From Phycisphaeraceae bacterium (GTDB lineage Bacteria; Planctomycetota; Phycisphaerae; Phycisphaerales; Phycisphaeraceae), in contig JADLAP010000056.1 in NCBI GenBank assembly GCA_020848195.1, positions 1 to 48,016 on the forward strand: a stretch of DNA of 48,016 nt, given 5' to 3'. The first letter of the stretch is position 1. Each line of letters begins with the position of its first letter. The position numbers were made by a program, and so were the translations under genes. The notes beneath the pieces were generated by a model, which made no database searches, had not been told where the DNA came from, and worked only from the letters and a program-made list of their open reading frames with translations. Below are positions 6,989-41,329 of the stretch, piece after piece.

Positions 6989-6993
6989 GTTTG

Positions 6994-7143
6994 AGCCGCG
7001 GATAAACGCAGATGAACGCAGATAAGAAATTCATCCAGAACCCGCGGAAGTTCCGAAGACGGAACATCCGCGGGCTTTGGTCGAAAAACCATGCTTTGAC
7101 TTCCTTGTCTTATCTGCGTTTATCTGCGTTCATCTGCGGCTAA
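6994..7143. repeat. 150-bp inverted-repeat element with nested hairpin
   Basis: The left arm (6994-7026) reads AGCCGCGGATAAACGCAGAT and continues with a second GAACGCAGATAAG unit. The right arm (7109-7143) is its near-perfect reverse complement. The arms are built from a 10-bp unit, GATGAACGCA or its GATAAACGCA variant. In the middle, 7041-7080 is a 40-nt hairpin also found at 40150-40189. There is no coding potential. Related copies of the arm occur at 31967-32001, 32103-32127 and 23936-23970. The structure is like a non-autonomous mobile element or a composite REP-type repeat; no transposase is present. Confidence 0.8.
7041..7080. repeat. 40-nt hairpin repeat, copy 1
   Basis: The first 10 bases (CCCGCGGAAG) and last 16 bases (CATCCGCGGGCTTTGG) are identical to those of the copy at 40150-40189. 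The 14 bases between them differ but still form a stem, TTCCG-AAGA-CGGAA here against CATCG-AGTA-CGACG there. The outer part pairs as CCGCGGA with TCCGCGG. Confidence 0.75.
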
Positions 7144-7156
7144 ATTGGATCACGAC

Positions 7157-17711: not shown

Positions 17712-17760
17712 GCCGCACAGTGTAGCCGGGGCTAGCACTTGTGAATGAAAAAGTGAGTTG

Positions 17761-17834
17761 GACGCGCGGGCAGTTTGCCCGCGGCTGGAACAAGACAGTT
17801 CATTCGTCATTCGGTTTTGGACATTACGTCATTT
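17761..17834. repeat. GCGGGCAGTTTGCCCGC hairpin repeat, copy A, with one long arm
   Basis: The 17-nt hairpin core is at 17766-17782, in the frame GACGCGCGGGCAGTTTGCCC, followed by GCGGCTG. The sequence at 17801-17834 (CATTCGTCATTCGG and onward) matches the right arm of the complete element at 37533-37649. It lies between the AraC gene and lnt. Confidence 0.75.
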
Positions 17835-19797: not shown

Positions 19798-19813
19798 GCG
19801 AATGACAGGACTC

Positions 19814-19890
19814 GCGGGCAGTTTGCCCGCGGCTGACAAGCCGGATGGATTCTGTTTCGACATTCGGATTTGGACCTTCGGCCTTTGCCC
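19814..19890. repeat. Hairpin repeat, copy B, with degenerate arm
   Basis: The core GCGGGCAGTTTGCCCGC is at 19814-19830, followed by GGCTGACAAG. ACATTCGGATTTGGACCTTC near 19860 matches the arm of the complete element at 37533-37649. It lies between the UroD-like gene and the topoisomerase A gene. Confidence 0.7.
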
Positions 19891-23902: not shown

Positions 23903-23935
23903 AATGCCGTCCAATCTTATGAATCCTCATTGGTT

Positions 23936-23970
23936 TTATCCGCGTTCATCTGCGTTCATCCGCGGCTAAA
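23936..23970. repeat. Single arm of the GATGAACGCA-unit repeat
   Basis: TTATCCGCGTTCATCTGCGT continuing to GCGGCTAAA matches the right arms at 7109-7143 and 32103-32127. No opposite arm is nearby. Its end creates TAAACT (23967-23972), a -10-like hexamer 40 bp before the topoisomerase B gene. Confidence 0.75.
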
Positions 23971-24011
23971 CTGACTTCGCCGCGCAGGACAGCCCCGCTC
24001 AAGGACGAGCC

Positions 24012-30510: not shown

Positions 30511-30600
30511 CGCGGTTACTCCGGTTCAGGGTGAGGGGGAACATGTTACACGAATCAGCAGCGGGTTTGCGAACGCTGATGGCACATATGTTCAGGACGC

Positions 30601-30617
30601 GCGGGCAGTTTGCCCGC
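30601..30617. repeat. Hairpin repeat, copy C (core only)
   Basis: GCGGGCAGTTTGCCCGC preceded by GGACGC, as in the other copies. It sits in the divergent intergenic space between the Gfo/Idh gene and the DUF3467 gene, so it is not acting as a simple terminator for either. Confidence 0.7.
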
Positions 30618-30708
30618 AGATGGAAAAGAGCGAACGCATCTCGCGGCATCCCATCGCCGGATAGGGTACGATTGCTGATTCGCAATCCTTCCCACGAGAA
30701 CAATTTCC

Positions 30709-31464: not shown

Positions 31465-31956
31465 CTATTGGCCCGCGCGCTCGGACTTTTCCTTCCGGGA
31501 GCCGGATCGGGGGTCCAGGCGGTACGCCAGGCCGTGGAGGATCGCCAGGGTCTGCCCGGATTCATCGGTGACGCGAACGTCGAAGACCGCCATCTTGCGT
31601 GAGCAGGAGACCTGCCTGGCCTCGGCCCAGATGGTCCCGGCGGTTCCCGCGCGCAGGTAGTTGACGCCGGCGTTGATGGACACGGCGGCATCCCCACAGG
31701 CATTGGCGGCCGCGGCGAACGCGACGTCCGCCAGCGTGAAAATCGCTCCGCCGTGCAGCATGCCCAGGCTGTTGAGATGACGGTCGGTGGCCTCCATTTT
31801 CGCCCGGCAGAAACCACGTCCGACTTCCACCACGTGAATGCCGTTGGCCACCGCGAATTGATCGCGCTCGAACTGCTCGATCACCATCGCCTCATGCACC
31901 TGAGGCCCGGCGTTGTCGTCGTGCTGCCAGCACTGATCGGGGTTGTGACATTGCAT
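31465..31956 (-). CDS. PaaI family (hotdog-fold) acyl-CoA thioesterase
   Basis: It encodes 163 residues. The hotdog signature is LGMLHGGAIFTLADVAFAAA at about residues 64-83, with the catalytic aspartate and the preceding His-Gly-Gly. The pattern V-S-I-N-A-G-V-N-Y-L-R follows, then the central strands. An N-terminal segment with MQCHNPDQCW is unusual and could be a short zinc-binding extension or an early start. Family members hydrolyse aromatic or medium-chain acyl-CoA. Substrate unknown. Confidence 0.88.
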   Translation of the reverse strand: MQCHNPDQCWQHDDNAGPQVHEAMVIEQFERDQFAVANGIHVVEVGRGFCRAKMEATDRHLNSLGMLHGGAIFTLADVAFAAAANACGDAAVSINAGVNYLRAGTAGTIWAEARQVSCSRKMAVFDVRVTDESGQTLAILHGLAYRLDPRSGSRKEKSERAGQ

Positions 31957-31966
31957 GGGGGGGATT

Positions 31967-32127
31967 TTAGCCGCAGATGAACGCAGATGAACGCGGATAA
32001 GACAAATTCAATTCAACCGCCAAGGCAGGAAAAGAAAAACAATCATTTGATTTTTCTCTTCCAGACTTGGCGATCTTGGCGTCTTGGCGGTTAGCTTTCC
32101 GTCTTATCTGCGTTCATCTGCGGCTAA
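31967..32127. repeat. 161-bp inverted-repeat element with nested second repeat
   Basis: The left arm (31967-32001) has TTAGCCGCAGATGAACGCAG plus a second GATGAACGCG unit and GATAAG. The right arm (32103-32127) is the inverse but with one 10-bp unit fewer. Inside lies another inverted pair: AACCGCCAAGGC (32015-32026) against a set of CTTGGCG repeats ending TTGGCGGTT (32064-32092). The right end gives the stop codon of the symporter gene (32124-32126). Confidence 0.8.
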
Positions 32128-34013
32128 ACGCTTTGCCTGAAGCAGCGATCCAGATGGTCCTTGGCGCAGGGGCGGGTGAGGCAGGAGACGACGATCGCGG
32201 TGAGGAGGGAGATGGGCAGAGCGATGACGATGGGATCGACGACAGGCCAGTTGGGGTGGTCGAGGAGGAGGCTGGCCTTACCGGAGCATTTCTGCGCCAG
32301 GCCGAACATGGCGGATTCGGGGAGTTTGACGAGGACAATCCATGCGGTGCTGACCAGGGCGCCGACGATGAGTGAACTGATTGCGGCGGCGGGAGTCATG
32401 CGGCGGAAGAACAGGCCTCCGATGAAGGCGGGGAGGAACGCGGCGGCGCAGAGGCCGAAGAAGATGGCGGTGGCGCGGGCGATGATGTAGCCGCCGCGGA
32501 GGTGATGGGCGAGGGCGACGGCGAGGATGATGCCGACGATGATGGCCATGCGGGTGGCGAAGATGCCGTGCGGCCGATTGGGTCGCATCGCGCCGATGCA
32601 GTCGCGGCTGAGCGCGGCGCCCTGGGCGTGGAACTGGCTGGCCAGCGTGCTCATGGCTGCCGCCAGCAGGGTCAGCAGGAACACCATGCCGAACCAGTTG
32701 GGCATGGCGCTGGTGATGAAGAGCGGAATGATGCTGTCGGGATTGAGTTCCCAGCCGCGGGCGGTGTGGACGAGGGAACGGGTGAAGCTGGTGGCGGCGG
32801 GCCGGACTTCGACCTTGCCGTCGGACAGGTTGACGATGTTGGCGTGGGGCATGATTTTCGCGGCCGGTCCCAGGCCTTCGGCGATCAGGTCCACGTTGGC
32901 ATGTCCGTCGCCGGTGGTGTCGAGGTGGATCAGGCGGCAGGGGACGGTTTTGACGCCGGTGTGATCGCGTTTGACCACGACGTCGGCGGAGGGCGTTTCG
33001 TTGATGAGCCGGCCGCGGATGACTTCATGTTGGTGAAAGTAGACGTTGCTCAGCGCGCCGACGGTGAACGCCACGCCGGGGACGACGAGGATGAAGAACG
33101 CGCCGATGGCCACCGCGCGGTTGAGCTGGCGCTTGCTGCTGACGGTCATGAACCGCACCGCCAGTTGAGGCTGCGCGAGGACGCCGATGCCCACGCCGAG
33201 GATGATGGTGCTGACGACGATCCACCAGAGGTTGTACTTCATGTCGCCCCAGCCGAATTGAGGCATGGCGGTGAAGCCCCGGTGCCCGATCGCGCGGAAA
33301 CCGGGGAAAACCTGGTCATTCATGCCGGTCAGCGCGTGATGGGCCGGTGTGACGCCGCCGAGGATGGCATACGTGCCCACGAGCAGCACGAGCATGCCGA
33401 CGACCATGACGATAGCCTGGAACGCCTCGGTGTACATCAGGCCCTTCATGCCGCCGCTGACGACGTAGACCGCCACAAGCACGCTGAAGACCAGCAGAGC
33501 CACGGTGTAGTCGACGTTGAACTGCGCGGCAACGAACTCCGCTCCGCCGATCAGCACCGCCGCGGCGTACAGGGGCATGAACACGAAGATGATCAGCCCC
33601 ACCAGTCCCTGCAGCGTCCGGCTCTGATACCGCCGACCGAGCAGTTCGCCGAAGGTGTGGGCGTCGAGATGATGCCCCATCTTCCGCGTGGGACCGCCGA
33701 GGAAGATGAATGCGATGAAGATGCCGACGAAGATATTGCAGAAGGTCAGCCAGAGCAGGCTCATGCCGAACATGGCCGCCACGCCGCCAAAGCCGACGAT
33801 GGCGCTGGTGGAAATGAACGTCGCGCCGTAGGACAGGGCCATGACGAAGGGGTGGACCTGCCGACCCGCCAGCAGGTAGTCCGCCGCGGTCGTGGTCCGG
33901 CGAAAGCCAAGCCAGCCGAGGAACACGGTCACCAGCAGGTACAGCAGCACCACGAGAATGTCGATCAGCCCCACGGCTTGTCCCAGCGCCGGCAGCATCG
34001 TCGCGCAGATCAT
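32124..34013 (-). CDS. Sodium:solute symporter (SSS family) with extracytoplasmic insert
   Basis: This Na+-coupled transporter lies in the inner membrane; the 629-residue protein has about 12-13 membrane helices. The start at 34013 overlaps the small accessory gene's stop (ATGA) and follows GGAGGAGG. SSS hallmarks include ADYLLAGRQVHPFVMALSYG near residues 44-63 and the GGMKGLMYTEAFQAIVM region at 187-205. Residues about 322-430 form an unusual extramembrane insert containing LDTTGDGHANVD (364-375), similar to calcium-binding repeats. The substrate is unknown. The stop codon lies inside a repeat element. It forms an operon with the porin-like gene. Confidence 0.9.
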   Translation of the reverse strand: MICATMLPALGQAVGLIDILVVLLYLLVTVFLGWLGFRRTTTAADYLLAGRQVHPFVMALSYGATFISTSAIVGFGGVAAMFGMSLLWLTFCNIFVGIFIAFIFLGGPTRKMGHHLDAHTFGELLGRRYQSRTLQGLVGLIIFVFMPLYAAAVLIGGAEFVAAQFNVDYTVALLVFSVLVAVYVVSGGMKGLMYTEAFQAIVMVVGMLVLLVGTYAILGGVTPAHHALTGMNDQVFPGFRAIGHRGFTAMPQFGWGDMKYNLWWIVVSTIILGVGIGVLAQPQLAVRFMTVSSKRQLNRAVAIGAFFILVVPGVAFTVGALSNVYFHQHEVIRGRLINETPSADVVVKRDHTGVKTVPCRLIHLDTTGDGHANVDLIAEGLGPAAKIMPHANIVNLSDGKVEVRPAATSFTRSLVHTARGWELNPDSIIPLFITSAMPNWFGMVFLLTLLAAAMSTLASQFHAQGAALSRDCIGAMRPNRPHGIFATRMAIIVGIILAVALAHHLRGGYIIARATAIFFGLCAAAFLPAFIGGLFFRRMTPAAAISSLIVGALVSTAWIVLVKLPESAMFGLAQKCSGKASLLLDHPNWPVVDPIVIALPISLLTAIVVSCLTRPCAKDHLDRCFRQSV

Positions 34014-37532: not shown

Positions 37533-37649
37533 AATGACCGAATGCCCAAATCCGAAGGACGAATGTCGGACGCGCGGACAGTTTGCCCGCGGCTGAAAAA
37601 GAACGTCGCACGACACCATTCGTCATTCGGATTTGGACATTCGGTCATT
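37533..37649. repeat. 117-bp inverted element containing the hairpin repeat, copy D
   Basis: The left arm (37533-37566, AATGACCGAATGCCCAAATC and onward) and the right arm (37617-37649, CATTCGTCATTCGGATTTGG and onward) are inverted copies of about 33 bp. The hairpin core GCGGACAGTTTGCCCGC lies at 37574-37590. It is the most complete member of the family with copies at 17761, 19814, 30601 and 41256. Confidence 0.8.
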
Positions 37650-37678: not shown

Positions 37679-38296
<618 letters not shown>

Positions 38297-38367: not shown

Positions 38368-40176
38368 TCAGGGCGGGGACGCCTGTGCCAGCGCGTCCGC
38401 GATCATCGTAGGCGTGATGACCGTGGGCAGGACGATCGGATCATTGACGCGGACACCGTACACGACGTACAGCGGCACGCTGTTGCGGCCGAACCGCGCC
38501 AAGGCCGCCGTCACCGTTTCGTCCCGCGAGGTCCAGTCTGCCTTCAGCAAGGCGACCTTGTGCTTCGCCACCGCCTGCTTCACCGTATCCGTCGCCAGCA
38601 CCGTGTGCTCGTTGAACTTGCACGTCAGGCACCAGTCGGCGGTGAAGTCCACCAGCACGGTCCGGCCCTGTTTGCGCAGCAAATCCAGCTCGCCTTCGGT
38701 GTAGGACTGCCATGCGAGCGTCTGATCGGAAGCGAGCCATCTCGCGGCATTCAGCGGCGTCGCCACCGCCAGCAGCAGCAGCAGCAGCGCGACCACCGTG
38801 GCGCTGCGCCGCACGCCGGGCTTGCGATGCGGCTGGCCCCACTTGCCCAGCACCCACGCTGCCATCGACAGCAGCAACATGCCGATCAGCAGGAGCATCA
38901 TGCCGTGGATGCCCGCGACCTGCTGGCCGAAGACCCACGCCAGCCAGATCGCCGCGGCGAACATGGGAAACGACATCAGTTGCCGGAACGTGACCATCCA
39001 CGCCCCCGGCCTCGGCAACACGTTCAGCCACGCGGGAAACGCCGACAGCAGCACATAAGGCATCGCCATGCCGACGCCCAATGCGGTGAAGATCAGCAGT
39101 GTCTGCGCGATGGGTAATGTGAGAGCCGCCCCCACCGCCGGTCCCATCAGCGGCGCGGTGCAGGGCGTGGCGATCACCGTCGCCAGCACGCCGCTGAGCA
39201 GGCTCGCCGTCAGCCCGCCCTTGCCCTCGGCAGCGACCTGCGCCTTGCCCGCCAGCGTCATCAATCCCGCGCCGAACTCAAACACGCCCGCGAGGTTCAG
39301 CCCCACCGCCATCAGCAGCAGTGCCATCACCGCGACAAAGCCCGGCCTTTGAAGCTGAAAGCCCCAGCCCAACTGCTCCCCCCCGCCCCGCAGCGCCAGC
39401 AGCACCGCCGTGAGCAGCCAGAATGAAATCAGCACCCCGGCGGCGAACGCCAGACCATGCTGCAGAATCTTCCGGCGATCCTCGCCCGCCTGCTGCACGA
39501 AGCCGAGAATCTTGATCGACAGCACGGGAAACACGCAGGGCATCAGGTTCAGCATTGCCCCGCCGAGCAACGCGTACAGCAGCATCAATCCCAGCGATCG
39601 CGGCTGCTCCGCGATCGGCGACACTTGCGGAACCGAAGCAACCGCGGCGGCGAACAACGCCGCCCACCGCGCATCGGACGCCGCCGGCCCCGGCCCTGCC
39701 GGCAAGGTCAGACTCAACTCCGCGCTGCCCGGCACGCACTCCTCACGGCACATCAGCCAGACCGCCTCGGCGGCCAACGTGACCTTGTCGCCCTCGATCT
39801 TCGCCGGCGTCTGGATGTCCACCGGCAACACGATTTCACCTTCATAGACGTTGTTCACCAGCCCGCCTAACACGATCCGCTGCGCTTTGGGCCACAGAAT
39901 CGAACCGGCTGCGAACCCGACGGGCAGCTTCCAACGCAGTTCCGTCGGCATCCCCGAATCGCCGGGGTCCTGCGTGTACGTATGCCAGTGCGGATCATGT
40001 TTGATGCGCAAGCCCACGCGGAGCGGCTGCCCCGGCACGACCGCCTGTGTTTGGGCGATCAGTTCCACCTCCACATGGCCCACGCGCTTCGCCTGGGCGT
40101 GAGCGAGCGCTACGGGGCCAAACAACAGAAGCAGTGCGATCAACGAGACCCCGCGGAAGCATCGAGTACGACGCAT
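38368..40176 (-). CDS. DsbD-family protein-disulfide reductase
   Basis: The 602-residue inner-membrane protein passes electrons from cytoplasmic thioredoxin to the periplasm. Start at 40176 gives MRRTRCFRG and the signal core VSLIALLLLFGPVALAHA. The domains are: N-terminal DsbD-alpha/ScsB-like beta domain (about 30-180), a membrane domain with the redox cysteines in NLMPCVFPVLS and IATPCTAPLMGP (about 215-480), and a C-terminal thioredoxin domain with DFTADWCLTCKFNEHTVL (CxxC at about 530). The start codon and first nine residues are encoded by a palindromic repeat (40150-40189). It follows the PHP gene and precedes the redoxin. Confidence 0.9.
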   Translation of the reverse strand: MRRTRCFRGVSLIALLLLFGPVALAHAQAKRVGHVEVELIAQTQAVVPGQPLRVGLRIKHDPHWHTYTQDPGDSGMPTELRWKLPVGFAAGSILWPKAQRIVLGGLVNNVYEGEIVLPVDIQTPAKIEGDKVTLAAEAVWLMCREECVPGSAELSLTLPAGPGPAASDARWAALFAAAVASVPQVSPIAEQPRSLGLMLLYALLGGAMLNLMPCVFPVLSIKILGFVQQAGEDRRKILQHGLAFAAGVLISFWLLTAVLLALRGGGEQLGWGFQLQRPGFVAVMALLLMAVGLNLAGVFEFGAGLMTLAGKAQVAAEGKGGLTASLLSGVLATVIATPCTAPLMGPAVGAALTLPIAQTLLIFTALGVGMAMPYVLLSAFPAWLNVLPRPGAWMVTFRQLMSFPMFAAAIWLAWVFGQQVAGIHGMMLLLIGMLLLSMAAWVLGKWGQPHRKPGVRRSATVVALLLLLLAVATPLNAARWLASDQTLAWQSYTEGELDLLRKQGRTVLVDFTADWCLTCKFNEHTVLATDTVKQAVAKHKVALLKADWTSRDETVTAALARFGRNSVPLYVVYGVRVNDPIVLPTVITPTMIADALAQASPP

Positions 40177-40245
40177 CCGCGGGCTTTGGCGGTTGTCAAT
40201 CGTGAGCAAAGCCTGCGAATGCGTCGTACTCGATGCTTCCGTGGG
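40150..40245. repeat. Inverted pair of the 40-nt hairpin repeat
   Basis: Copy one at 40150-40189 and copy two at 40206-40245 are in opposite orientation, separated by 16 bp, so the pair can fold into a large hairpin with about 40-bp arms as well as two small ones. Copy one shares its ends with 7041-7080. It lies over the 5' end of the DsbD-type gene. Confidence 0.8.
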
Positions 40246-40323
40246 GATTTGCACGCCATCCAATTGTCGCTGGAGTTTGAGCATCGTGGTAGACAACTGC
40301 GGCTCCCGTGCGTCTATTCCCAC

Positions 40324-41199: not shown

Positions 41200-41255
41200 G
41201 GTGGAACTATACCCGGCTTTCCGACGCGGTTCCCGACCTGTACTCCATCTCAGCC

Positions 41256-41272
41256 GCGGGCAAACTGCCCGC
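41256..41272. repeat. Hairpin repeat, copy E (inverted)
   Basis: GCGGGCAAACTGCCCGC, the reverse complement of the other cores. The flank GCGTCCGTCGTTCGTCAT repeats the arm next to the core in the other copies. It lies between divergent genes. Confidence 0.7.
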
Positions 41273-41329
41273 GCGTCCGTCGTTCGTCATTGCATTTCCG
41301 TCCCCCGTTCTGCCGATCTCTTCTTGACC

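Follow-up and report, generated by a model that had tools for sequence, protein, structure and literature searches.

A REP-like inverted repeat doublet at the 5′ end of a DsbD-like gene in a Phycisphaeraceae genome and its possible role as signal peptide start

The window analysed here is a whole stretch of 48,016 nucleotides, contig C77 of G000, and belongs to the 3.77-Mb draft genome of a Phycisphaeraceae bacterium. On its minus strand, a gene for a PHP-domain phosphoesterase (41199-40324; PF02811, E = 2.3e-13) is followed by a DsbD-like gene and by a gene for an AhpC/TSA-type thiol protein (37679-38296, likely start at 38296 with AAAGGAA upstream). The closest NCBIfam model for the PHP protein is the 3′,5′-nucleoside bisphosphate phosphatase, with a score below its cut-off. 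The DsbD-like protein (38368-40176, minus strand) is 602 aa long if read from an ATG lying in a repeat, and it contains DsbD_N, DsbD_TM and thioredoxin-like domains (Pfam E values of 5.9e-17, 3.4e-15 and 1.7e-18). We call it DsbD-like because its score is under the cut-off of the curated NCBIfam DsbD model (PRK00293; 115 vs 330 bits). Among the genomes searched, the nearest relative with a DsbD-like gene is the Phycisphaeraceae MAG SJ709.

Between the stop codon of the PHP gene and the DsbD domain lies a pair of inverted arms of 40 nt each (40149-40188 and 40207-40246), 18 nt apart and 93 % complementary, which covers the 5′ end of the DsbD-like gene. The computed arms, complementarity and positions bear out the hairpin repeat that the initial annotation had placed over this gene start. 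The consensus of the element is slightly longer than the arm (AGACC...GCTTTG, approximately 40146-40189). Copy 1 (40146-40189, plus strand, 69.5 bits with model R1) is a hairpin of the form AGACC-CCGCGGAAG-CATCG-AGTA-CGACG-CATCCGCGG-GCTTTG with zero mismatches outside the core. After a spacer (40190-40206) follows the inverted copy 2 (40207-40249, minus strand, 55.4 bits), which has the same unique core and three changes in the outer stem. The 25-nt core had no other match in the window at up to three mismatches (shuffle expectation 0.00). Since the core common to both copies is absent from all other copies seen, the two are probably sister copies. A third copy of the element is located in an intergenic region of the window (7041-7079, plus strand).

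Read on the minus strand, copy 1 contains an ATG (40176-40174) from which ATG CGT CGT ACT CGA TGC TTC CGC GGG encodes MRRTRCFRG, followed by VSLIALLLLFGPVALAHAQA. The proposed start codon and n-region (40150-40176, minus strand) are repeat sequence throughout, as had been claimed. The segment VSLIALLLLFGPVALAHAQA (40090-40149, minus strand) would make up the hydrophobic core and the c-region, with an A-Q-A end that looks by eye like a cleavage site. It directly follows MRRTRCFRG, also in agreement with the earlier description, and because the consensus extends to about 40146-40189, its first codon (GTC, 40149-40147), encoding the valine at residue 10, is still repeat-derived.

The element is dispersed, with the consensus AGACC-CCGCGGAAG-N5-AGTA/AAGA-N5-CATCCGCGG-GCTTTG. 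Using a covariance model, we counted about 50 copies in its own genome, 56 in G035, 27 in G023, 10 in G008, 5 in G007 and 2 in G056, and zero or one match in eight other relatives. A strict pattern recovered the element in four of 400 genomes of the order. The distribution is patchy and mobile-like, and the element is plausibly mobile. Most copies in the own genome (44 of 52) lie outside genes, as called by a simple self-trained caller based on codon usage, and inverted doublets with a short spacer are found also on contigs C109, C204, C342, C370, C401 and C85. The inner stem displayed 46 double-change cells with 97 % of cells paired. The covariation score was 0.332 vs 0.087 in shuffles, a control that ignores the relatedness of the copies, and none of 500 shuffles reached it. 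All slid controls were exceeded too; these keep the relatedness and agree, but they are biased towards the structure, which was itself obtained from these very sequences. The repeat element is real and carries compensatory changes in its inner stem. No curated Rfam model matched it up to E = 1, a search of PHROGs gave no match, and we found no description in the literature resembling the sequence of this repeat. The repeat looks undescribed.

Several other repeats were observed alongside the element. A doublet version of about 107 bp with longer terminal inverted repeats (CGTCGCAAGACC...) and GGGGCG and GACCCG cores is present at L073, L075, L086 and L138 (contigs C401, C370, C109 and C85, respectively), and it looks like a MITE made of two elements. 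A second palindromic family (GGACGCGCGGGCAGTTTGCCCGCGGCTG) occurs in the window at 17760-17797, 19808-19845, 30595-30632, 37568-37605 and 41250-41291, partly bordered by repeats of the CATTCGTCATTCGG type. The short repeat TTTATCTGCGTTCATCTGCGGCTAAA is found in both orientations (6990-7027, 7105-7147, 23923-23973, 31955-32007 and 32091-32131 in the window). Within 6990-7147 it stands on either side of one hairpin element, and similar sequence lies by copies on other contigs.

In being a short hairpin present in tens of mostly intergenic copies, forming inverted doublets and having a patchy distribution, the element resembles REP/BIME/REPIN doublets. The two large described super-families of REP are defined by a GTAG or CGTC end tag. 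Unlike these, our element has neither tag, and its conserved ends are GACC and GGCTTT (AGACC and GCTTTG in the consensus). On contig C167 of G035 (L284), a RAYT-type gene (1333-1869) has pairs of GACC...GGCTTT hairpins on both sides (1166-1330 and 1895-1990) of the form GACC[CG]GCGATACCATCGC[CG]GGCTTT, with slight variation such as GACCG on some copies. A RAYT-type gene stands beside a weak doublet also on contig C43 of G007. The GACC and GGCTTT ends common to the element and to the C167 hairpins suggest that all GACC/GGCTTT hairpins may be moved by RAYT-like enzymes. We considered a RAYT of the own genome as the mobiliser and rejected it, the single Y1_Tnp hit having no flanking element copies. 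The element is also similar to the class 3 TnpA-Y1 elements, which are hairpins of Planctomycetes linked to a HuH transposase, sometimes of high copy number and with an atypical foot. This likeness is one of description, and the foot reported for them, CnGA (PMC6006769), differs from the ends seen here.

The DsbD_N domain is one that needs export, which bears on the start codon of the DsbD-like gene. Only the ATG at 40176 gives a basic n-region of normal length directly before the hydrophobic core, with four arginines, a 16-residue hydrophobic stretch and an AxA motif. From alternative starts, the n-region would be 36-49 residues longer or uncharged. The sequence preceding 40176 (cgccaaagcccgcgg) contains no Shine-Dalgarno-like motif, and no sigma-70-like promoter was found near this position. 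We also looked for a role of the element as a terminator or sigma-70 promoter and found neither. As coding sequence, the repeat-coded codons score -5.6 over 9 codons, which would be expected after a recent acquisition and lends no support to the start. On balance we favour 40176, inside copy 1, as the start of the gene, arising from incidental co-option of a REP-like element. The REP-like inverted doublet, presumably an insertion, occupies the short gap between the PHP and DsbD-like genes, with one copy overlapping the 5′ end of the latter. The Sec signal peptide would most likely now begin at the ATG built into the element (CGGATG). Its start codon and the four n-region arginines would then come from the element, and its hydrophobic core from the host. 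The co-option would be incidental, at the edge of the insertion. Both the insertion event and the use of 40176 are plausible.

The situation is complicated by another in-frame ATG upstream of the doublet (40282-40284, minus strand), which starts MLKLQRQLDGVQ... and lies 39 nt past the PHP stop, a gap normal for an operon. The doublet may have been inserted in frame within an old n-region whose original ATG at 40284 is still used; we regard this as possible, though rather unlikely. The frame is open from 40284 through both copies, and back to 40323. The 12 codons from 40284 to 40249 score +2.6, a coding-like value that speaks for 40284 as an older start. Scores this high were found in 54 % of coding windows, in 15 % of off-frame windows and, in a small intergenic sample, in 5 %. 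If the intervening 102 nt are removed, MLKLQRQLDGVQ would join SLIALLLLFGPVALAHAQA into a reasonable signal peptide. However, there is no Shine-Dalgarno-like motif at 40284, an n-region of about 45 residues would be unusual for a Sec signal, and a chance open frame of 36 codons is common at this G+C content. With about 33 repeat residues between n-region and core, such a protein would resemble those carrying Rickettsia palindromic elements inside them. Because the codons between 40284 and the doublet score like coding sequence, it is a possibility that the doublet was inserted just inside the old gene, which then either moved its start to the repeat or gained about 33 repeat-coded residues.

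In nearly every copy, the antisense strand of the element reads CGG-ATG-CNN-CGT-ACT..., encoding M-x-R-x-R-x-F-R-G-V. We checked whether this ATG is a portable start in the 52 own-genome copies and in 41 copies of G035 and G023. In the own genome it was in frame with and open to the downstream gene in three of the 21 copies that have such a gene, no more than expected by chance, and only dsbD had no start further downstream. A general portable start was thus rejected. The element ATG is in frame with genes for DHFR (L081, 2711-2758) and GH94 (L140, 2405-2452), which account for two of the three own-genome cases, and, in G035, with a gene for RuvC (L158, 2057-2104). The Pfam domain begins at residue 38 in DHFR and at residue 82 in GH94, both with ordinary starts downstream, and RuvC is alike, with its domain from residue 26. 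The repeat ATGs are clearly not the starts of these genes, and they serve as a warning for annotation, since an ATG built into a repeat can draw called starts upstream. That this family, with its built-in start and basic peptide, was domesticated at least once as start and n-region of an exported redox protein, with the hairpin throttling translation, appears to us unlikely.

The same three genes fit a pattern in which the repeat is purely extragenic, and for many N-terminal REPs elsewhere translation has been inferred to start downstream (Di Nocera et al. 2013, PMC3733652). Applied to dsbD, this would make 40176 an annotation artefact and place the true start downstream, for example at the TTG at 40143. 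The gene, however, has no ATG from the repeat to the mature domain, only TTG inside the hydrophobic core, and TTG starts would give a signal without basic residues; we hold such a start to be quite improbable. As nothing from the repeat to the mature domain can be a normal start, dsbD is exceptional among the genes with an in-frame repeat ATG.

We compared the locus with those of relatives. In the nearest of them, G014 (64 %), DsbD starts with MKHGQSKYEGGRGRQKAAAG... behind its own GGAAAGGA. No element was found near dsbD in four of the closest relatives (G014, G001, G003 and G029). The n-regions of their DsbD proteins are unrelated to that of the window protein and to each other. The initial annotation had expected relatives lacking the repeat to begin with unrelated residues before a conserved hydrophobic core; the unrelated residues were seen in all four, but the core is not conserved in sequence. 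The unrelated N-termini fit recruitment of the repeat only weakly, as signal peptides and their n-regions vary anyway. The AhpC/TSA-type gene adjoins dsbD in G014 and G003 too, and adjacency of PHP and dsbD was not found at the dsbD loci of the relatives. A contig search for an empty site returned only the one relative (61 %, L196), and no locus in its pre-insertion state was found.

The initial annotation had also placed the start codon inside a strong hairpin, and the folding predictions agree. For a minus-strand piece of 161 nt, the predicted fold has an energy of -84.7 kcal/mol (z = -7.1) and pairs copy 1 with copy 2. On a read-through transcript containing both copies, some 40 bp are predicted to form between them. 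The repeat ATG would then lie hidden within a long hairpin, with a predicted probability of being unpaired of about 0.001. For a transcript whose 5′ end falls between the copies, the prediction gives a single hairpin alone, and the mean unpaired probability at the start is 0.32-0.34, compared with 0.40-0.42 predicted for the two neighbouring minus-strand genes. Translation from 40176 would need an opened hairpin or a transcript starting downstream of copy 2, and an effect on expression is plausible. The strong predicted pairing of the ATG could also mean that the doublet is a functional switch of translation or mRNA stability, kept for hiding the start codon of dsbD. The outer stem of copy 1 is perfect consensus and all three changes are in copy 2, but this would happen by chance in about 1 of 8 cases. 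Moreover, similar hairpins lie before, behind and between unrelated genes, and the dsbD genes of relatives are without such an element, which makes a switch very improbable in our view. An edge insertion leaving by chance a working start at 40176 explains everything seen, with no need for selection. The original proposal that a repeat was recruited as part of a signal peptide holds as far as the repeat is amplified and mobile-looking and 40176 offers the best n-region; recruitment in the sense of benefit or selection found no support.

Other repeats provide precedents. For Yersinia YPO1552, the predicted signal peptide contains the enterobacterial repeat RU-2 (Delihas 2007, PMC2759123). RU-2 is 168 bp long, whereas here a 40-nt hairpin would give only the start codon and n-region, and both cases are predictions. 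In-frame REPs have also been described by Di Nocera et al., with the caution that many of the N-terminal ones are artefacts of start annotation. Rickettsia palindromic elements and intragenic REPs (PMC3733652) are similar to our case in that palindromic repeats are in frame as protein, N-termini included. They differ from it in repeat sequence and ends, and in dsbD the repeat reaches no further than the extreme N-terminus, a part probably removed with the signal peptide. A repeat-derived signal peptide has a published precedent in RU-2 (PMC2759123), as reading of REPs in frame has in the work on intragenic REPs (PMC3733652), and dsbD would plausibly be another instance.

The GACC/GGCTTT hairpins extend the range of REP-like ends to planctomycetes related to Phycisphaeraceae. 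If confirmed, the dsbD start would be a clean, small case of a selfish hairpin repeat becoming working protein sequence, in the n-region of a signal peptide, where the demands on sequence are lowest.
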